Positions 1,057 to 54,471 of a stretch of DNA of 64,000 nt are shown here, one piece after another. The notes beneath the pieces were generated by a model. It did not search any database. It was not told the origin of the DNA and saw only the letters and a program-made list of their open reading frames with translations. The stretch comes from Ophiura sarsii. Lineage: Eukaryota; Echinodermata; Ophiuroidea; Amphilepidida; Ophiuridae. Every line of letters starts with the position of its first letter. Within the stretch, counting starts at the first letter, position 1. Location of the stretch: NCBI GenBank assembly GCA_035610835.1, contig CM069444.1, positions 1,786,614-1,850,613 of the forward strand. Direction: 5' to 3'. Both the position numbers and the translations under genes were made by a program.

Positions 1057-3441
1057 TTAGGGCGGATGATTTTTCCGAACCACAATGCCTCTCCAGATCT
1101 TCCTATCCAACATAGCTGTCTTGATTTCTTCCACCTGCAGTCCTGTATCACGTTTGAGTATGTCAATGTAGGTCAGGGCTGGTCTACCACGCTTTCTTGC
1201 TCCGTGCTTTGGGATCCAATGTATAAGTTTGTGTACAAGCTCCTTGGACCCTCTGAAGCAGTGTCCAGCAAATCTTGCTCTGCGTTCTCTGATCTTGTCC
1301 GAGACTTTTGGCATGTCCCCATACAGGTCCTTATTTGTCACATGCTGACTCCAGTTGATGTTGAACACAGATCTTAGCATCCTAGTGTAGCATCCATCCA
1401 GTTGTTTACCAAGCTTTGGGGTGACTGTCCATGCCTCACATCCATAAAGGAGGACGGATTCTACTGTAGCTATGAACAGTCTTTCTTTGAGCTTTCTGGA
1501 TAATGATTTAGCCTTCCATAGCTGACTAAGTTTGCCACAAGCTCTCCATGCAGCTGCTTTGCGTGTTTTGATGTCCTTTTCAGTGTTGTTCATCCAGGCT
1601 CCAAGGTATTTGAAGTCTTCCACTTTATCAAGGCGCATGCCTTCAATTGTGGTAATTACAGGTACTTGCGTCTGGTTGAAGGACATGTACTTCGTCTTTG
1701 CAGCGTTCATTTTGAGCCCAACTCTTCCCACTGAAGTCTCCACTCTATTGAGTAGTGATTGCGCTTGAGACACTTCCTCAGACAACAGTGCAATGTCATC
1801 AGCAAAGTCTAAGTCTGTTACTACGGTTGGTCCTATTCTTCTGCTGCTTCTTTTTGTTAGGTGGAATCCTAGCTCTTCTTCTCTGCCATCTATGGCCTCT
1901 CTTAGGGCATAGTCAAGAACAATGACAAAAAGATATGGAGCCAGGGTGTCTCCTTTGTATATGTCTGCTATCGCATTTGTAAGCTGATCAGGTACACCAT
2001 AGGCTTTCAATATTTGCAGCATTCGTCCCCTATGTATTGTGTCAAACGCTTTCTTGAAGTCGATAAAGGTTATGATGGCTGGCAGTTGATTTGATCTTAT
2101 TCCCTCAATAATTCTTTGAAGGGCAAGTATATGACCTACAGTGGTTCGTCCTACTCTGAAGCCATTTTGATTAGCTCTTAGGTGGACGTCTAGCTCCGGT
2201 CTAATTCTGTTGAGTATCATCTTGTTGTATAGCTTGGCAACAATTGAACTCAGGCTTATTCCACGGTAGTTACCCCCCAAGCCGAGATCACCTGATTTCG
2301 GTATTGGTACTATGTTGAGAATGGACCACTGTTCTGACTTTTTCCCGTTCAACAAGGCATCATTGCAGACGTCGAGAATGATGTTATCCAAATCACATCT
2401 TTTGAGCATTTCAGGTGTAATACCATCTTCCCCACAGCTTTTCCCCTCTACTAGTGCCTTCTTAGCCTTCTCATATTCCTCCAAGTCAAAGGTTCCTACT
2501 TTAATGTTGAGATCTGATAGTATTGGAGCAATTTCCTCATCCTCATTACTTATATGTGGTGGGCTCCCAAGTAGATGTTTGAAGTGAGTGTACCAGTTGT
2601 TTAATCTCTCCTTTTGCGTGGACCCTTTGATTTGCCCCTTTCTTGTTGTCAGTCTTCCTGATATTTGGTTTATCAGTTTCCAACTCTTACCATGCTTGCT
2701 GTTTATGTGAGCATTTTCTACCTCTCTTAGCTTATTGGTAAGGTCTTTCTCTTTCACTTGATCATAAGCCTCCCCTAGGCTCTTCTTAGCATCCTTATAA
2801 TCTCTGCTATTATTCTCATTGCTAGTGTCTAGTTGATATTTTGCGTAAGCTTCAACAATTTTTGTTCTCGCCCCGATAACCTGGGCGTCTTTTGAGAAGT
2901 AGTTTCTTTTCTCTTTCTTCCTCGCAGGAATGACTTCCTCTGCAGCTTCTTGAGTGGCTGTAATGAACCTTGTGTATTTCTCAGTTGCAGTTTCTACATC
3001 ATCCTGAAGGGGCTGAAACCTATTGCGCACCTCTATACTGTATTTAGCTTGTAGATCTTGATCAGTTGTCAATAGATTCCAATCGTACTGCTTTTTCCGT
3101 TTGATGATCTTACTCTTCCTGAGGCTTAGTCGGATGCTAGCAGAGACTATTCTATGGTCAGATCCCACACTAGCAAAGGTGTTGTATGCTTCAGAATTTT
3201 GAACACTGTTTCGCCATTTCCGCCTGACAAGGATGAAGTCCAGCTGTAGTTTGTTGCCGCCTGGGCTGACATATGTCCACAACTTGCCCTTTTTCTTGCG
3301 AAAGTAGGTATTTGCGACTATTAGATCTTTCTCTTTAGCTAGTTCTGCTAGATACTCTCCATTTCTGTTTGTATCATCATGGTATGAAAATTTGGCGTCA
3401 TCCTTTCCAAGTCTGGCATTGTAGTCGCCAACAACAAGCAA
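1057..3441 (-). pseudogene. LINE endonuclease C-part plus reverse transcriptase
   Basis: A 794-codon open frame. It begins inside the endonuclease with VVGDYNARLG (GDxN metal/DNA-binding motif), continues to SVGSDHR (SDH motif), then a linker, then RT motifs: FIDFKKAFDTI (motif A catalytic Asp), GDTLAPYLF (motif B) and DFADDIALLS (motif C, FADD). The C-terminal tail carries RGRPALTY. The step from NAIADIYK straight to GDTLAPYLF is too short: the usual stretch of roughly 25 residues ending in GVLQ before GDTLAP is missing. This is an in-frame deletion near 1957 that removes part of the RT palm/finger boundary. The frame is long because this deletion and the upstream damage are compatible with continued reading, not because the protein is intact. 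Confidence 0.85.
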
Positions 3442-11513: not shown

Positions 11514-14024
11514 ATGCATTATTCTTTCCCTAAGAATACATGTGATTTCTTGGAAGAGTTTGATGACTTTATCACCACCGTATCATCTTTAACAAGCAGA
11601 CTACTTATACTAGGTGACTTTAACATTCATGTTGACAAGCCTGATCATTCGGTTGTTAAGAGATTTAATTCATCACTTGTTTCTTCAGGATTGCACCAGC
11701 ACATTCACGAACCTACACATAGGGCAGGACATACTTTGGATCTTGTTATAACATGCCGCGATGATCAATTAATCAATAACTGCAAGGTGAAGGAATACTC
11801 TTTATCTGATCATCACATGATTCATTGCGTGTTAAACCAAGAGAAATCGGTGCCTGTAAATTCTGTCTCTACTAGTAGAAATTTCCAGCATATGAACCAC
11901 GATGCTTTCGAAAAGGACCTAGCATCTAAAGTTTGTGAAATACAATCTGGTGAGTCACCTATGGAATTGCTGACCAGCTTTGAATCTGCCATCACTTCGG
12001 TACTGGATAAGCACGCACCTCTCAAAACTAAATCCCATAAGTTACGACCCAAGCAACCTTGGTATCATCAGGATATCAAAGTCGAGAGACGTTTGAGAAG
12101 AAAATATGAGCGTAAATGGCGTAAATCTGGTACTGAGATCGATCGTATGGCTTATCAAAATCAGAGGGATAGAGTCAATCAACTGATTGATGACAGTAAG
12201 ACGGAGTTTTACAGGTCCTCTCTTGCAACTTCAGACAAAAAGGATGTTTTCAAGACTGTCAACTCTTTACTCAACAAAAACCGCAGAATTCTCCCTGAAT
12301 CCGATTCACCTCAACTTCTGGCAAATGATTTCGCTGTTTTCTTCAAGGACAAGGTTGATAAGATTCGCAACACTCTTAATGAGCAACAGCCTGACAATGA
12401 TACGACCACCAACGAGATCAATGAACTCCCAATCGACTTGGAAATGTTTAACGAGTTTGAAAGGATTACAGAGGAGGATGCGCGGAAATTAGTGAAGGGA
12501 TTTGCTAGTAAATCATGTGCTCTTGACACCATTCCTACGTGGCTCTTAAAGGACAAGTTGGATATTATTCTACCTGTTCTAACATCTATCATAAACACAT
12601 CTATTTCAACCGGCATTTTCCCAAACTCCCTTGGTCAAGCCATAATATCACCAATTTTGAAAAAACCATCATTGGATCACAACGCCTTAAGCAGTTATCG
12701 TCCTGTTTCTAATATCAAATTTGTTGCCAAACTTATCGAAAAAGCTGTTGCCACACAACTGAAACAGCACATGTCTCGGCACGATCTTGAGGAGCTATAC
12801 CAGTCTGCTTATAAGACACATAACAGTACAGAAACGGCGCTTTTAAAGATTAAAGACGATGTACTCATGGCGATGGACAAGTCGCATATAGTTTTTCTTG
12901 TTTTATTGGATCTGTCTGCAGCCTTTGACACTATCGACCATACTGTTTTACTTAGGAGAATGAACACAGAGCTAGGTGTATCAGGTACTGCCCTACAATG
13001 GTTTAAGTCATACCTCTCTGGTAGACAGAGCCGCGTGTCCATTGGCAACAGCTACTCGGATCCTGTGGATCTAAAATATGGTCTACCGCAAGGATCCATT
13101 CTTGGTCCTTTAAAGTTTTTAATCTATACGCTCCCTCTCGGAAACATCATTCGCCGCCATGGCTTAGACTTTCACCTTTATGCAGACGACACGCAGTTAT
13201 ACTGTTCCTTTAACCCCAAAATACCTGGTGCTATGCAACACGCAATCAAGAGGCTACAACTGTGTATTTGTGAAATCCAAAATTGGATGACCATTAACAT
13301 GTTGAAATTAAATGAGAGCAAAACAGAGTTTATTGTGTTTGGATCACCCCATTTTCTCCAGAGCTTGCCACCTGTGTCCCTGGCAATTGGTGATGCACAT
13401 ATTGAACCAACGCTGTCTGTTCGGAACCTGGGTGTAAAATTTGATGCAAATATGACCATGACCAAACAAATATCTAGCCTCTGTCAATCTACACATTACC
13501 AGTTAAGAAACATCCGTAGAATAAAGCGATACCTCGATAAAGACACTCTTCATCATGTCGTTAGAGCTTTAGTTATCTCTCGTCTTGACTATGGTAATCT
13601 TCTTCTCTTTGGTGCTACGGAACATGAATTGAACAGAGTTCAAAGATTGCAGAACAATGCCGCTCGGTTGATATGTTCCATATCCATGCGTGACCATATT
13701 ACTCCCACGCTTAAAGAACTCCACTGGCTGCCCATACGGGAAAGGATTCAATTCAAACTCTGTCTTTTTGTCTTCAAAAGCATGAACAATACTGCACCTG
13801 GATATTTATGCAATTTACTGTCACCATATGTTCCTCGAAGAGCTCTTCGTTCTGCAAATGACATTACTCGCCTAAATGTTCCTAGGACAAATAAGGTCTT
13901 GGGTCAGAAATCTTTCAGTGTAGCTGGTCCACGGGCATGGAACAATCTCCCTCGTACCATAAGAGAAACTGACAATATCTCTCATTTTCGTTGTAGTCTA
14001 AAGACTCACCTTTTTCCATGCTAA
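11514..14024 (+). CDS. L2/CR1-like LINE endonuclease-reverse transcriptase
   Basis: An 836-codon open frame. It begins in the C-terminal half of the apurinic-like endonuclease: RLLILGDFNIH (GDFN motif) near residue 38, HTLDLVITCRDD, and LSDHHMIHC (SDH motif) near residue 95. The RT follows, with SYRPVSNIKFVAKLIEK, LLDLSAAFDTIDH (motif A, catalytic Asp), YGLPQGSILGPLKF (motif B) and LYADDTQLY (motif C, YADD). The C-terminus carries LKELHWLPIRERIQFKL and WNNLPRTIRE, ending FRCSLKTHLFPC. The N-terminal endonuclease half and any ORF1 are missing, so the copy is 5'-truncated, but the remaining frame has no stop or frameshift, indicating a recent insertion. The given ATG is only the first Met after the truncation; the frame is open from 11415. 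It is not a host gene. Confidence 0.92.
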   Translation: MHYSFPKNTCDFLEEFDDFITTVSSLTSRLLILGDFNIHVDKPDHSVVKRFNSSLVSSGLHQHIHEPTHRAGHTLDLVITCRDDQLINNCKVKEYSLSDHHMIHCVLNQEKSVPVNSVSTSRNFQHMNHDAFEKDLASKVCEIQSGESPMELLTSFESAITSVLDKHAPLKTKSHKLRPKQPWYHQDIKVERRLRRKYERKWRKSGTEIDRMAYQNQRDRVNQLIDDSKTEFYRSSLATSDKKDVFKTVNSLLNKNRRILPESDSPQLLANDFAVFFKDKVDKIRNTLNEQQPDNDTTTNEINELPIDLEMFNEFERITEEDARKLVKGFASKSCALDTIPTWLLKDKLDIILPVLTSIINTSISTGIFPNSLGQAIISPILKKPSLDHNALSSYRPVSNIKFVAKLIEKAVATQLKQHMSRHDLEELYQSAYKTHNSTETALLKIKDDVLMAMDKSHIVFLVLLDLSAAFDTIDHTVLLRRMNTELGVSGTALQWFKSYLSGRQSRVSIGNSYSDPVDLKYGLPQGSILGPLKFLIYTLPLGNIIRRHGLDFHLYADDTQLYCSFNPKIPGAMQHAIKRLQLCICEIQNWMTINMLKLNESKTEFIVFGSPHFLQSLPPVSLAIGDAHIEPTLSVRNLGVKFDANMTMTKQISSLCQSTHYQLRNIRRIKRYLDKDTLHHVVRALVISRLDYGNLLLFGATEHELNRVQRLQNNAARLICSISMRDHITPTLKELHWLPIRERIQFKLCLFVFKSMNNTAPGYLCNLLSPYVPRRALRSANDITRLNVPRTNKVLGQKSFSVAGPRAWNNLPRTIRETDNISHFRCSLKTHLFPC

Positions 14025-46155: not shown

Positions 46156-47708
46156 CGCGTGCTTGGCTGAACATTGATAGCAGCGTCGGCGCGGTCGGGC
46201 CTCGTGTAAGCCTATTGATTATGTGGTACCGTTGCAAATACGACTGGTATGTAGACCGGAGTAGACCTACTTGAAATTATTTAGCGTGCATGACTGAACG
46301 GAAGTATAGCCATACAGCGCAGCGGTTTGCCCTGCTCGTCAGTGCCCCGATTGTGCCCGGCCGCGTGCCTTTGGACGGACCCGTGGCTCGTGATGATGGC
46401 GGCGTGTGTCCCAGTGAAAGGTGTTCTATAGGCCTAGTTACGGTATTCCTTATCAATCAGCATATATAGGGATATGCATTTTGAGTTTGACAGTAAGCCT
46501 AAGCCCTGTGTCTATATATATGAACAATTATTATGTTTTGAGGTGTCCAAGTCTGGTATAATATAGGATCCAAAACATAATCATGATACTGAAAGCGGAT
46601 GTATTTGTCTCGCTATCGGACTGAGTTCCAAATAAAAATTAAAAACTCATAGCTCGACCACTATCATGACTATGGTTTCAATCCAATGTTTTTACCAAGA
46701 TCTCATCTTTATTGTTCGGCACAAAGCTCAATTATACAGATCTATCAATTGTTGGTGATGTTAAATACAGCAAATCTATGAAGCAATGTTCTGCTTGAGC
46801 ATGTTCAGGGATCATTTAGGCTATACCATAGGCTTATATTAAGTTTGGCCGATGTAGTATAAGTGGGTTAATACCCTGAAAGTGAAAAAATCATTCACCG
46901 ATTTTCCATGATCGAAACGTGAACTGATAAAAGACTTTCGATGAAATTAACCGAGAAAATGTGTTCCCCATTATATAAAATGTCTGATAGTGATAGGCCT
47001 ATAGAACAAATCAATATAATTTCATAATAATAACATCACGCATGTTGCTCATCCTCTATGCGCGCGTGTCCCGGCCCCCCGTAAAATATTTGGTGCCACC
47101 AGCAAGCATTTGAAATTTGTTTTCTTTCGTCTCTATATAACCGAAAAATCACCAATCAGCTACGGTGTTATTCCAGGAATTTCAAATAACCGCAGGGATG
47201 GAAATAAGACCCGCCCGCCCGCCCATAGCGGGTAACTTTCGTGTCGGGCGGGTGAAGATTCAAAGGTACCCGTCCGACTGGCGGGTAACATTTTTGAAGC
47301 TCAAAGTGTAAGGAACAGTAAGTTCAGGGTAATTTCATCATCAGATGATCGTGTGTCATGATGATAGAGGAGATCAGGTTGATAGGAGATTAAAGAGAGT
47401 ATTGGATTGATGAACATGATGAATACGAGGAGCTGTTACGGGCTAGGTTTACAGTGGAACATAATAAAGACAAAACATGTAAATGTTTAAAGGCATATTA
47501 TGTGATCTTTTCAAGAGAGCGCCCTCTATTTTCTATTTTTTTTAGAAAGTAAATTTTCATGCAGATTTACATTTCTGATCATAAATCATACATAGGCCTT
47601 CATTCCAAGTTACAGAGCGATACGATTCCTAATTACCTCAAAATCATGGTTTTAGAGTGAATTTAGAGTGAAAATAATAAACTGTCGGATTTTTCGAAAG
47701 TTTATTTT
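46156..47708. other. Interior of the composite, no gene seen
   Basis: Short frames only. There is a C-rich piece GCCCGCCCGCCCATAGCGGG near 47214 with a small inverted repeat, otherwise nothing assigned. Confidence 0.4.
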
Positions 47709-48684
47709 CATTACAAAGGGGGTGGGAGGGTACCAACGGTACCTGCTTTCGGACGACCAAACTAACTCTTTTAAAACCACCGATTGTAAAATGCTATAAT
47801 AGAAGTTCAAACTAGAAAATCTAAAATAAGTAGCATTCCAAAACAGAAAACTTTGATGAAGATGATTTAAAAGAAAATCAACTGAAGGCAACGTGTCTGA
47901 CAAAATCTTTGTCGTGGCAAAACTTATTAGATGATGTGTTGTTAAAACAAACAACACTGAATTTCTAAACTTGAAATTCCTATTTTGTCTTATCTCACAA
48001 AATATATTTGATTCTATGTCACACGGTAAAAGCTTCCGAATGAAACACGATAAACGCTGGCTCTTTCTCCGACATTTAAAATGATAAATTTCCAAACTAG
48101 GAAAGTATATCTGATTAAAATCTGACAAATAAATGTCTTGCTGAATGTTGTGTAGGCCTAATGTGCTTTATTCCGTATTGGACTAAAAGACACGCGGCAT
48201 GTAATGCTCATATTAAACTTATATGAGAAGGCAGTAGGTCTATTTATCTTCCGGTAAATCAAAAAGCGAACTGGCTTAATGATAGTTATTTAAAACTATG
48301 ACAGAAGGCATGACTTGCCGTTCTTTAAACGATGATCGATGGAGGCGACTTGTTGTAATTCACCCGGTAATTCATGACTATGAAACTTCAGGTTTATAAA
48401 ACTGTTTGCTAAAAGAAAGCTAGCTTGCTTTCGTAACTAAGATGACTCTGGGAAAGAACAAAATTAATCCAATGGACTAATACGGAAAACCAAATGCCAT
48501 TCTAGACTTAGAGTGACTTATATACAATGAGCTTTGTATATGTCTAATAACATTCCTAACTTAAAATGTCCTCTCCCTTGAGTTTAAACTACTAGGGAGG
48601 AGACAAATAAGTTGAGAATGTCCTATAGAGTAAAGGCCCACCATGTTTAAGATAAAACAATGGTGACGGCATGCAGAGTAGCTA
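47709..48684 (-). mobile_element. Ribozyme-element body, copy A
   Basis: About 976 bp, apparently identical to copies B and C. Sense is minus: it begins TAGCTACTCTGCATGCC directly after the predicted hammerhead cleavage site and ends CCCCCTTTGTAATG. The minus strand has an open frame starting MSDFNQIYFPSLEIYHF, shared by all three copies, without recognised similarity. The frame may be chance. Confidence 0.85.
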
Positions 48685-48729
48685 GACGCGTTTCGACTCT
48701 CCGTGAGTCTCATCAGTAGCACGGGCTGC
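48673..48729 (-). ncRNA. Type I hammerhead ribozyme motif
   Basis: Read on the minus strand: stem I 5' side GCAG-CCCGU-GCUA, core CUGAUGA, stem II GACUC-ACGGA-GAGUC (5 perfect pairs), core GAAA, a minimal stem III from CGCG, the cleavage triplet GUC, then stem I 3' side UAGC-UACU-CUGC. Stem I pairs perfectly in its two halves (GCUA/UAGC and GCAG/CUGC) around an internal loop. All invariant core nucleotides are present. Short-stem-III type I hammerheads are known from Penelope-like elements and retrozymes and usually act as dimers. Confidence 0.85.
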
Positions 48730-49774
48730 TGTAGGTCAACTGACCTGTGCCTACATACACAAGTTTTAAATCTAAGTAAGTACAGGGCAAAACTTGCCTA
48801 TATTACTAACAGACGATAAAAATGTTATGCAACGAGCGAGATAACTTTCGCTGATCGGAACCATACTCGGGCCCTAAAATTTCGCGGACATACTGCCGCT
48901 ATTAAGCCTATCATACAGTTTGGCAAAAGCCTGAAACTGTAATGAATGTTTTCCATGTTCAATTCCCAAAAGTTAAACCATTTCTTGGTTAACTACAAAA
49001 TGGCGACCATGCTCTCCGTCCTATGCTGGACAATGAGAGCAAGCGGCCGTCGACAATGCCGTAGGCGATCCAAGCAAACAAAGGATGCCAATTAGCGTAG
49101 TCATAAAAGATGAAAGGCCTGGTATCTTTACCAGTCATGTTGATCACATGTACAACTCGTGCACACTTGCGCCTCCATTTGTAATAATATAAAATAATAG
49201 AATACTATCTATTACTTTTTCTAAAATTAAACAGAAAACTATCTATTTATGTTGAAAAGTCCTGGCTAGGATGTATATTCAAGACCTTGAATTTGACTAA
49301 CTAGTCAATCGTGAAAAGATGCCAAACAAAAATGAACCTTTCTTGGTTCAAACAACAATCAGTAAAGTTATTACTAATGTCGGGAAATGCGTGTTCTACT
49401 TTAATAAGTAGAGAAAGAAGAGCTCGAAGAATCAAAATGTCGAATAAGTTGATAGTTGCCTGTTCTGTGATGAAAACTCTTTCTTGAGTTTTTTTCTATT
49501 ACAATTATCTGCTGAAAATCGGTGGTGGAAATTAGTCTCTATTTCCAAAAACCTACTGAACTTAGTAAGTTTAAAAGTTAAAAAGAGTTGAATTCAAGAG
49601 TTGAATTCTGATGGAAAGACCTACAACGAGGGATTGACTGCCAACATACCATCAGATATGTCCGTCAATACTATCTATTACCCCTCCCAAAACCTCAAGT
49701 ATGGCAGTCATGACCTCGGAAATGTAAACACATCCAAAAGAATCACCTGTGGAACACACCGGGTTACTATATCA
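48685..49774 (-). mobile_element. Ribozyme-element upstream part, single copy
   Basis: 1090 bp between copies B and A. Its minus-strand 3' end is the 5' half of the hammerhead motif ending ...GCGUC. Together with B it makes a unit of exactly 2068 bp. No reverse transcriptase or GIY-YIG sequence is seen. There is a small inverted repeat AGAGTTGAATTC-type at about 49585-49608. Confidence 0.6.
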
Positions 49775-50752
49775 AACATTACAAAGGGGGTGGGAGGGTA
49801 CCAACGGTACCTGCTTTCGGACGACCAAACTAACTCTTTTAAAACCACCGATTGTAAAATGCTATAATAGAAGTTCAAACTAGAAAATCTAAAATAAGTA
49901 GCATTCCAAAACAGAAAACTTTGATGAAGATGATTTAAAAGAAAATCAACTGAAGGCAACGTGTCTGACAAAATCTTTGTCGTGGCAAAACTTATTAGAT
50001 GATGTGTTGTTAAAACAAACAACACTGAATTTCTAAACTTGAAATTCCTATTTTGTCTTATCTCACAAAATATATTTGATTCTATGTCACACGGTAAAAG
50101 CTTCCGAATGAAACACGATAAACGCTGGCTCTTTCTCCGACATTTAAAATGATAAATTTCCAAACTAGGAAAGTATATCTGATTAAAATCTGACAAATAA
50201 ATGTCTTGCTGAATGTTGTGTAGGCCTAATGTGCTTTATTCCGTATTGGACTAAAAGACACGCGGCATGTAATGCTCATATTAAACTTATATGAGAAGGC
50301 AGTAGGTCTATTTATCTTCCGGTAAATCAAAAAGCGAACTGGCTTAATGATAGTTATTTAAAACTATGACAGAAGGCATGACTTGCCGTTCTTTAAACGA
50401 TGATCGATGGAGGCGACTTGTTGTAATTCACCCGGTAATTCATGACTATGAAACTTCAGGTTTATAAAACTGTTTGCTAAAAGAAAGCTAGCTTGCTTTC
50501 GTAACTAAGATGACTCTGGGAAAGAACAAAATTAATCCAATGGACTAATACGGAAAACCAAATGCCATTCTAGACTTAGAGTGACTTATATACAATGAGC
50601 TTTGTATATGTCTAATAACATTCCTAACTTAAAATGTCCTCTCCCTTGAGTTTAAACTACTAGGGAGGAGACAAATAAGTTGAGAATGTCCTATAGAGTA
50701 AAGGCCCACCATGTTTAAGATAAAACAATGGTGACGGCATGCAGAGTAGCTA
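49775..50752 (-). mobile_element. Ribozyme-element body, copy B
   Basis: Same sequence as copy A at a constant offset of 2068. It starts (minus sense) with TAGCTACTCTGC at 50752 and forms the left arm of a palindrome with copy C, centred between 50749 and 50750 with no spacer. Beyond its TTTGTAATG end it continues into the single-copy part. Confidence 0.85.
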
Positions 50753-51724
50753 CTCTGCATGCCGTCACCATTGTTTTATCTTAAACATGGTGGGCCTTTA
50801 CTCTATAGGACATTCTCAACTTATTTGTCTCCTCCCTAGTAGTTTAAACTCAAGGGAGAGGACATTTTAAGTTAGGAATGTTATTAGACATATACAAAGC
50901 TCATTGTATATAAGTCACTCTAAGTCTAGAATGGCATTTGGTTTTCCGTATTAGTCCATTGGATTAATTTTGTTCTTTCCCAGAGTCATCTTAGTTACGA
51001 AAGCAAGCTAGCTTTCTTTTAGCAAACAGTTTTATAAACCTGAAGTTTCATAGTCATGAATTACCGGGTGAATTACAACAAGTCGCCTCCATCGATCATC
51101 GTTTAAAGAACGGCAAGTCATGCCTTCTGTCATAGTTTTAAATAACTATCATTAAGCCAGTTCGCTTTTTGATTTACCGGAAGATAAATAGACCTACTGC
51201 CTTCTCATATAAGTTTAATATGAGCATTACATGCCGCGTGTCTTTTAGTCCAATACGGAATAAAGCACATTAGGCCTACACAACATTCAGCAAGACATTT
51301 ATTTGTCAGATTTTAATCAGATATACTTTCCTAGTTTGGAAATTTATCATTTTAAATGTCGGAGAAAGAGCCAGCGTTTATCGTGTTTCATTCGGAAGCT
51401 TTTACCGTGTGACATAGAATCAAATATATTTTGTGAGATAAGACAAAATAGGAATTTCAAGTTTAGAAATTCAGTGTTGTTTGTTTTAACAACACATCAT
51501 CTAATAAGTTTTGCCACGACAAAGATTTTGTCAGACACGTTGCCTTCAGTTGATTTTCTTTTAAATCATCTTCATCAAAGTTTTCTGTTTTGGAATGCTA
51601 CTTATTTTAGATTTTCTAGTTTGAACTTCTATTATAGCATTTTACAATCGGTGGTTTTAAAAGAGTTAGTTTGGTCGTCCGAAAGCAGGTACCGTTGGTA
51701 CCCTCCCACCCCCTTTGTAATGTT
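50747..51724 (+). mobile_element. Ribozyme-element body, copy C (inverted)
   Basis: Exact inverse of copy B, sharing the 6-bp self-complementary TAGCTA (50747-50752). It ends CCCCCTTTGTAATG like copy A and then runs into TTATAGTATTTTAAAATCCC, host sequence that is also present without the element at 52597. The shared sense frame is here on the plus strand (51303-51728). Confidence 0.85.
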
Positions 51725-53880
51725 ATAGTATTTTAAAATCCCTACTACCGGCAAATATTGTAGTCCCTGCCACCAGTAAAATATGGAAAGGCCCACTGCC
51801 CCACATTGAACAAGCGCCCTAATAATACTTCAAGCCGAGGAGTGTTTGCTTGAAAAATATATAATATATAATTTTTTTGGAAATTTTAGTCCGTAGATGT
51901 ATAATTTACACATGAAAGGCCTACTAACAAGTAGTCCGTATCCAAATTAAAGTTACAGCGTCCATATATTTCTATACTTTAATCTTTACCAAAAGGGTTT
52001 ACCCCGGTACAAACCGTCATATTCCCACCATCCATTTTTGTCACTGATTTCTCTACCATCATGCATGCATCGGGAGTTTAATTAATTTGTTTGGTATGGT
52101 ACGGGGGGGGGGGGGGGGGGGGGGGGGGACCTGCAACTTCACGTGCAAATGAGTACCGACCAAATAATCTTTTGGTTTATCAAAATACGGCACAATTGTA
52201 ACAGATATATTTGAGTTTTACGGTCATCTTCAAGGTGGAAACTCCAAAGGAAACACATAAAACACAGAACAGATATGATCTTTTTCCGTCGACTATAATA
52301 ATATAAAATAAGCCTAACCACCAACCCCAAATGTTAAGCCAAGCCGCACGCATTCATTTCAGGTACTTGCAATGGCCATACAGCACGGGCGTTAACGGCT
52401 CTCACCACCGCCGCGCTACGGTCATTCTGCCAAGCACGCATAATAATTCCAGGTAGGCCGTAGGGCCAACTTGCAAGGGAAATAACCACGGGCACATCAC
52501 CGCATAGAGGCAGGACACCCGTCGCGCAGTGGCGCCTCGGTGTTCAGCCAAACACAGGCACGCATATCCCGTGCCGAATTTGATGACCCAGTTGCGTTAT
52601 AGTATTGTAAAATCCCTACCACCGGCAAGTATTGTAGTCCCTGCCACCAGTAAAATATGGAAAGGCCCACGGCCCGGCCCACGGCCCCACATTGAACAAG
52701 CGCCCTAATAATACTTCAAGCCGAGGAGTGTTTGCTTGAAAAATATATAATTTTTTTGGAAATTTGAGTCCGTAGATGTATAATTTACACATGATAGGCC
52801 TACAAACGTAAACAAGTATAGTCCGTATCCAAATTAAAGTTACAGCGTCCATATTTCTATACTTTAATCTTTACCAAAAGGGGTTACCAGTACAAACCGT
52901 CATATTCCCACCATCCATTTTTGTTACTTATACCATCAGAGTTCAGAGTTTTTATTAACCAAACATATAATCATCATGCATCCATCGGGAGTTTAATTAA
53001 TTTGTTTGGTATGGTACTGGGGGAAACCTGCAACTTCACGCTATGAATACCCACCAGCCCCTTGGATTACCCCGTGCATAACTTAACCATATCCCTGGGC
53101 CATCGGCGCCCGTATACCGGTCGTAGATAATTGGGGTTATTCTACGGTACGCGCGGGGATAGGGGCCTACTGTATTTGCCGGGTACTTTGACCACCACTT
53201 AGGGGTTTAAAACAGAAACCCTGTTCTACGGGCCCGGCGAATTTATTAACCGTGTCCGTATTAAACTAACATTTGGCCAAACACTGTATACATTGCTGTA
53301 CAATGTACATGTGCATGTGTGTAACCTTTACTCGTCAATGCTGAGACTAGGTATATAGTCTCAGGGCAAAGGTATCACACGTTTGTTACGCGTACGGTAA
53401 ATAACATCGCGGCCCGGCCGACACATTTTTAAAGAAATTAGTGAAAAGAACTTTACGTGCAAATGATTACCGACCAAATAATCTTTTGGTTTGTCAAAAT
53501 ACGGCACAATTGTAACATATATATTTGAGTTTTTACGGTCATCTTCAAGGTGGAAACTCCAAATTAAACATATAAAACACAGAACAGAGATGATCTTTTT
53601 CCGTCGACTATAATAATAAGCCTAACCACCAACCCCAAATGTTAAGCCAAGCCGCGCGCAATAATTTCAGGTACTTGCAGTGGCCATACAGCACGGCGTT
53701 TTAAACGGCTCTCACAACCGCCGTGCTACGTCATGTCAGCCAAGCACGCATAATAATTCGGCCTACTTGCAATGGAAATAACCACGGGCACATCACCGCA
53801 TAAGAGGCAGGACACCCGTCGCGCAGTGGCGCCTTGGTATCAGCCAAACACAGGCACGCATATCCCGTGCCGAATTTCCC
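51723..53880 (+). repeat. Large tandem duplication with internal insertion
   Basis: TTATAGTATT ... TCCCTGCCACCAGTAAAATA starts at 51723 and again at 52597 (step 874). The later block ACGTGCAAATGA starts at 52141 and 53455 (step 1314), so unit 2 holds about 440 bp extra (roughly 53030-53450). Unit 1 has a (dG)26 tract at 52103-52128 where unit 2 has only five G. Confidence 0.88.
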
Positions 53881-54471
53881 CCGTGCCTCTCCCGGCTATT
53901 AGTTGCGGAGTGTCGATAGCCGCTTATAAATTAATTATTAAAACATGACTAATAAACAAAGGAAAGTGTATCCGTGTATAAGGAACCAAAATATCCAACG
54001 ATGAAACACATATAACAACTATTCAATCACTGTCAAAAGCCAACAAAATTAACACCAGTCGTATTATAATTTCTTTTAATTGGTTCAAGTTCTGCTTATC
54101 ACTTGCAATCGGCATACATTAAAATGTATTTTCTCACTTTGAAAACCGTGCTATCGGCATACATTAAAATGTATTTTCTCACTTTGAAAACCGTGCTAAA
54201 CGCACATGTTCGATTGTATGAGAAATAATTACACACATATATATCGAACAGTTCGAACTTGTAATCATTGTTACGATATTGAATGTACATGTATACCCAA
54301 CAACATCATGTGTGCTGTACCGGGGTACATGTACTCATGCATAATAGATTTACAACCGGGCCGCCACACAGATCTTGTGTGATCATGTGTGACATTGTGT
54401 ATGCATGATAGATTTACCACGGCCGCACTGAGACACAGATTACATTGATCCATCGCTCGTGCTGATTTGCG

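Follow-up and report, generated by a model that had tools for sequence, protein, structure and literature searches.

The 64-kb stretch of Ophiura sarsii DNA analysed here (the window) holds at 47709–51722 an insert built from a 2068-nt repeat unit that closes with a predicted hammerhead ribozyme (HHR). Most probably this is a non-autonomous Penelope-like element (PLE), in which cleavage by the HHR gives a linear RNA template its 5′ end, and a reverse transcriptase (RT), initiating internally at about unit position 975, copies the template until run-off at the cut. That ribozyme-cleaved RNA was copied into the genome, as the first-pass annotation had proposed from the window alone, is very probably correct, and this core idea is supported by a peak of 5′ ends at the exact base among other genomic copies.

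Organization of the insert

Units are numbered along the minus strand, unit 1 being the T opposite 48684 and 50752, the first base past the predicted HHR cut, and the unit length is the offset between two direct copies, A and B, in the window. Copy A (47709–48684, minus strand, unit 1–976) is a pseudo-LTR (LTR, long terminal repeat) that spans from the predicted cut at 48684 to the element 3′ end at 47709 (..CCCCCTTTGTAATG). It is 100% identical over 976 nt to copy B (49777–50752, minus strand, unit 1–976), a pseudo-LTR whose 5′ end is the HHR cut position. The match between them is lost at 48685/50753, so that the earlier reading of identity up to 48684/50752 and divergence at the predicted scissile position GUC^UAGC holds. 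Between the two copies lies the single-copy part (48685–49776, minus strand, unit 977–2068), which measures 1092 bp, not the 1090 bp first given, and closes with the HHR. The 2068-nt unit from cut to cut also stands, but a third copy had been overlooked: copy C (50747–51722, plus strand, unit 1–976), an inverted pseudo-LTR identical to A and B. Copies B and C share a TAGCTA palindrome (50747–50752, strandless) at their 5′ ends and are joined there head-to-head in a perfect inverted repeat, whose 975-nt arms abut without a spacer at 50749/50750. A fold-back read or assembly artefact was considered for this palindrome and rejected, as copy C ends at the element 3′ end and is followed by DNA that differs from the flanks of A and B. 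The insert as a whole (strandless) terminates on either side, at 47709 and 51722, with the element 3′ end (..CCCCCTTTGTAATG), which would correspond to the start site of reverse transcription.

Since TAGCTA is palindromic, the window junction alone is ambiguous, and may represent unit-1 ends annealed over 6 nt or unit-4 ends joined blunt. The unit holds 40 six-base palindromes, which makes a single palindromic head-to-head join weak evidence, and base-level precision of the cut-site 5′ ends therefore comes from the other genomic copies and not from this junction.

The predicted type I HHR is located at 48681–48720 on the minus strand and was identified by a motif scan with shuffled controls. 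It reads GCTA-CTGATGA-GACTCACGGAGAGTC-GAAA-CGCGTC^TAGC and comprises stem I GCTA/TAGC, CTGATGA, stem II GACTC/GAGTC, GAAA and a minimal self-complementary ACGCGT, with the predicted cut after GUC, between 48685 and 48684. No other HHR-like match was found in the window, and 100 Markov shuffles gave 0.26 loose and 0.01 strict matches per strand. Rfam did not call an HHR at the gathering threshold, nor at E-values up to 10 over 46500–53500, which can be attributed to the minimal stem III and the self-complementary ACGCGT. The exact variant recurs in 53 of 58 HHR-scan matches in the window and the fetched loci (L001–L008 omitted as overlapping), and L040 contains a diverged relative whose HHR is retained and carries, in stem II, a compensatory replacement of C-G by T-A. 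The unit accordingly has the parts of a minimal type I HHR, as predicted from its sequence.

Concerning coding capacity, the longest stop-to-stop frame over 47600–51800, the sole unit frame scanned, has 175 aa and no Pfam match. No PLE-type RT was found in it, so the unit would be at most a non-autonomous PLE derivative.

Copies that begin at the predicted cut

The genome searched comprises 1.57 Gb in 748 contigs (C labels below denote contigs and L labels fetched stretches). The first 23 unit bases occur at 354 sites with at most one mismatch, the 100 sites listed being all exact and placed on C1–C8, while exact intact HHR-unit junctions number 313 genome-wide. Twenty stretches of ~10 kb and twenty of 2.2–4.4 kb were inspected. 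Tabulating the 5′ ends of other copies, the check suggested by the first-pass annotation, did reveal the sharp peak at the exact base, although most ends are scattered. Among 27 resolved 5′ ends, six fall at unit 1 and 21 at 21 different positions (4e-15 under a uniform null). These ends were resolved by hand, one per listed 23-base locus up to C7:42.3 Mb with duplicates merged. The count omits L032 (5′ end outside the fetched stretch), two unfetched loci on C7 (36.6 and 75.2 Mb), all C8 loci (three exact-cut sites included), the second members of pairs that are head-to-head or adjacent (units 546, 16, 37 and 617 in L033, L040, L046 and L039), the second L047 copy (unit 5) and an L010 copy starting near unit 9. 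Thirteen further ends from the best-scoring matches (899, 297, 118, 1169, 1640, 709, 281, ~2053, 1518, 1003, 867, ~2060 and 2043) include none at unit 1, bringing the combined count there to 6/40; they are biased against the cut, because they were ranked by a query reaching 16 nt upstream of it. A scatter of 5′ ends is what the first-pass annotation had named as a refutation, but truncation at varying positions is common in elements of this kind and leaves the peak standing.

A genome-wide search for any base but C followed by TAGCTACTCTGCATGCCG returned 19 sites, and the same pattern read backwards, used as a control, had no match. We read the flank of every one of these sites and, for the 17 outside the window, compared 110 nt by BLAST with the unit and with an RT-bearing element in L010, presented below. 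Nine flanks match neither (L030, L034, L050, L054, L055, L057, L058, L059 and L060) and count as seven independent ones, as L034, L057 and L059 have a flank in common. Another six consist of the element's own 3′ tail (L049, L051, L052, L053, L056 and L061), L051 and L052 belonging to a single locus at a distance of 977 bp. The L035 flank is a copy in inverted orientation plus a short filler, and in L062 (C19:19400034–19400072) the HHR end GCGTC is followed by AAAACA and then by unit 1; this may reflect a jump from one cut end to another with bases added, or a small insertion. The last two sites are the head-to-head ends of the window itself. The 19 sites amount to at most 16 independent events, and unit starts preceded by C but not by TC are absent genome-wide.

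In the opposite direction, GAGTCGAAACGCGTC without the following T occurs at one site genome-wide, the L062 insertion, against 313 intact junctions. The signal is thus one-sided, with a single site stopping at the cut and 19 starting there. This bears on a purely DNA-level origin, in which the boundary was placed by a break, or by joining through microhomology, at the palindromic TAGCTA. The window junction is indeed a perfect palindrome, little surprise for a single join given how many the unit offers, whereas no palindromic join is present at 17 of the 19 exact-cut sites, and a DNA break site should give ends on both sides; we regard such an origin as extremely improbable.

A second alternative is that the RT was halted by a folded, uncut hammerhead and not by the end of an RNA. 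Some ends do lie inside the HHR (units 2039, ~2053 and 2060), and two (L047 and L077) stop at unit 5, immediately short of stem I. A block at stem I, however, should halt synthesis before its 3′ strand, at unit 5, and not at unit 1. The unit-5 control gave nine sites, of which the four read were two true ends (L047 and L077) and two small insertions (L078 and L079, the latter being one of six unit-5-control sites in one array); with 19 sites at unit 1 against these two true ends, a halt at the fold seems very unlikely. Transcription starting from a promoter at unit 1, with no ribozyme cleavage, would yield the same DNA ends. It would require a base-exact coincidence with the predicted scissile phosphate in a non-coding family, and the same coincidence again in a PLE whose HHR and start sequence are different (seen in one copy), and we consider it very unlikely.

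Common 3′ end and arrangement of the copies

The 3′ ends of the copies are more or less uniform. Ends of high-scoring segment pairs (HSPs) at unit 960–980 make up 42 of the 58 HSP ends inside unit 200–2060 when short 3′-end pieces are included, and 28 of 42 internal ends when they are excluded; these counts omit the overlapping L001–L008, and their remainder includes ends at the edges of fetched stretches. Given this clustering, insertion of a cut-to-cut 2068-nt unit, as had been envisaged at first, or derivation of the insert from a circle, is not supported. Moreover, just one site stops at the cut, and the middle HHR was read through in the window copy, so its template had at least 3044 nt and an end or cut on the 5′ side only.

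Solo copies running from unit 1 to the common 3′ end at ~975 were observed in L030, L034/L057/L059, L055 and L060, and define the “LTR” as the interval between HHR cut and RT start. In L050 there are two starts, and the copy terminates behind the second pseudo-LTR; the fetched piece of L054 stops just before the 3′ end, and in L058 and L035 a different sequence appears ~976 nt downstream of the start. Target duplications of 35–36 nt were found in L057 and L059, and L034 shows this duplication lengthened by two bases (by eye), while none was found in L030, L050, L055 and L060, nor, on inspection by eye, at the window insert. In this check a match beyond the true 3′ end was used for L052 and L056, the 3′ end of L035 was not found, and L049, L054 and L058 were left out.

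The inspected stretches hold tandem arrays (period ~2.06–2.08 kb), partial tandems, solo 976-nt copies and head-to-head pairs. A long array at C8:11548471–11581156 has 17 exact unit starts ~2.04 kb apart. Direct and inverted pseudo-LTRs, palindromic head-to-head joins and 5′ truncation, all expected of PLEs, are present. Two complete LTRs around each insertion, as in LTR retrotransposons and plant retrozymes, were not found in these stretches, which show partial tandems and truncated 5′ ends, and the 2068-nt unit is not the short repeat of ~170–400 nt of metazoan retrozymes. In L024/L025 (C9:17687140–17687200) and in L021 (C574) a head-to-head junction consists of a 3′-tail piece followed by the last 9–10 nt of the HHR; it is the same on both contigs, which are possibly duplicate haplotypes.

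A circular, retrozyme-like RNA as the template would agree with the ~2.07-kb tandem arrays of this genome and with the circles that related HHR retrozymes make (PMC7229834). A circle without an end at the cut would leave no 5′-end peak there, and we judge it highly improbable as the general template, though circular RNA could feed some tandem copies.

A candidate Penelope-like driver

In L010:5620–9494 (minus strand) we identified, in this order, a 409-aa RT fragment, an HHR of its own, a 274-aa open reading frame (ORF) and a 3′ tail shared with the unit. The 409-aa ORF matches RVT_1 (1.5e-10) and is 5′-truncated, being cut off head-to-head against a unit array; no Pfam match was found for the 274-aa ORF. 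The HHR differs from that of the unit (GTTA-CTGATGA-GGAAGAGTCC-GAAA-CATGTGTC^TAAC), and the tail aligns with unit 760–975 (47710–47925 in the window, minus strand) at 83% over 226 columns (E-value 6e-54). Sharing of this cis-sequence would link the unit to a PLE RT element within this genome.

Among 89 homologues of the L010 RT, P0203 (27% identity) has a GIY-YIG domain and aligned RT motifs; it is the only one with PF01541 in the precomputed annotation, where close homologues lack GIY-YIG. When four homologues were scanned for this domain, P0203 passed and P0199 fell slightly below the cut-off, and none was found in the 409-aa L010 ORF, which is 5′-truncated. The RVT_1 match, the similarity to P0203 and RT motifs that we take to be diagnostic suggest an RT of PLE type. 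The brittle star Amphiura filiformis also yields relatives of the L010 RT, and a literature search for this species together with Penelope returned no paper.

One copy of the L010 element starts at its own predicted cut by the exact pattern, with a non-C base before it and the same kind of tail upstream. In L010 itself, the PLE tail is followed by unit 1 of the non-coding element. Near 3327 of the same stretch, a pseudo-LTR copy begins at about unit 9, directly after the 3′ tail of another copy.

Surroundings of the insert

The left flank of the window insert (47486–47708) is part of a fold-back repeat, relatives of which occur in L028 and L048, and the right flank (51722–53900) is another repeat, with a second occurrence from 52596 on. 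By comparison with L028, the insert sits in the hairpin arm of the fold-back repeat, whose other half is missing on the right. Elsewhere in the window, two ORFs at 1057–3441 (minus strand) and 11514–14024 (plus strand) have RVT_1 and weak endonuclease-like matches, like non-LTR retrotransposons.

Comparison with known elements

The closest likeness is to PLEs. Pen2a_Av of Adineta vaga presents direct and inverted pseudo-LTRs and a palindromic head-to-head join, structures attributed to self-priming, as well as partial tandems and 5′ truncation (PMC3846280); the palindrome of our unit sits on the HHR cut. PAc of Anolis combines an HHR with an internal RT start at a common 3′ end, and its protein cleaves and extends both target strands (PMC11167929). 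It differs in that its cut lies 85–92 nt from the main RT start and no reads begin at the cut (PMC11167929), whereas the pseudo-LTR described here extends 976 nt from HHR cut to RT start in a unit for which no coding capacity was found.

Metazoan retrozymes are likewise non-autonomous, with a type I HHR, tandem copies and low GC. Their RNAs are ~170–400 nt long and a circular intermediate is proposed, with help from PLEs (PMC7229834); in contrast, copies that begin exactly at the cut call for a linear template terminating there. In R2 and its non-autonomous R2 SIDEs, a ribozyme also fixes the exact 5′ end of the template, the non-autonomous forms share ends, and the RT can jump to another RNA with few extra nucleotides (PMC3414825). 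R2 nevertheless has an HDV-like ribozyme fold and a site-specific target in 28S genes. Its RT belongs to another class than that of PLEs.

Proposed mechanism and implications

Under the PLE explanation, arrays and partial tandems would be transcribed into multi-unit RNAs, and the HHR would cut some of their junctions, leaving linear RNA with a 5′ TAGC. A PLE-type RT, perhaps supplied by the L010 element or a relative of it, would recognise the shared 3′ tail, initiate internally at about unit 975 on a nicked target, and copy until truncation or run-off at the cut. The run-off end could then be joined to target DNA, giving a solo 976-nt copy. It could also be joined to a second cDNA begun on the other strand, giving the head-to-head B/C of the window, or it could reach the start site of another RNA by a template jump, giving tandems in which the tail is followed by TAGC. 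Priming on two target strands would account for the presence of a start site at either extremity of the window insert. The middle junction of the window insert was left uncut, which implies that cutting in vivo would be partial and fits the many truncated and array copies.

Several observations weigh against this explanation. Most copies start elsewhere than at the cut (21/27, or 34/40 with the further ends), and some ends are near the cut but off it, at unit 5 (L047 and L077) and at about unit 9 (L010 near 3327). A target duplication is present at one insertion only, and four other copies, whose flanks differ and whose 3′ end was located, lack one. The rule that copies start at the cut is backed by only one copy in the autonomous element, and HHR cleavage is itself a prediction. 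The main result against a required role of the HHR comes from the in vitro study of the full-length Anolis PLE protein, where HHR mutants had no effect on insertion, no reads started or ended at the cut, and unprocessed RNA was the dominant substrate (PMC11167929). We found no earlier report of copies starting at an HHR cut in the literature, available in part only as excerpts, and this is no proof of absence from print.

The role of HHRs in such elements has been an open question. Base-exact, one-sided 5′ ends in many copies would be historical evidence of the use of cut RNA in vivo, and the two-sided count of ends can be applied to any PLE-rich genome. For PLEs in general, we lean slightly toward the HHR being a 5′-end maker, with multi-unit transcripts cut to linear RNAs, and run-off followed by closure, by a partner cDNA or by a jump. 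If this is true, 5′-end making by the HHR would build the tandem and inverted pseudo-LTR structures of PLEs, and non-coding hitchhikers could spread with just an HHR and a start site.

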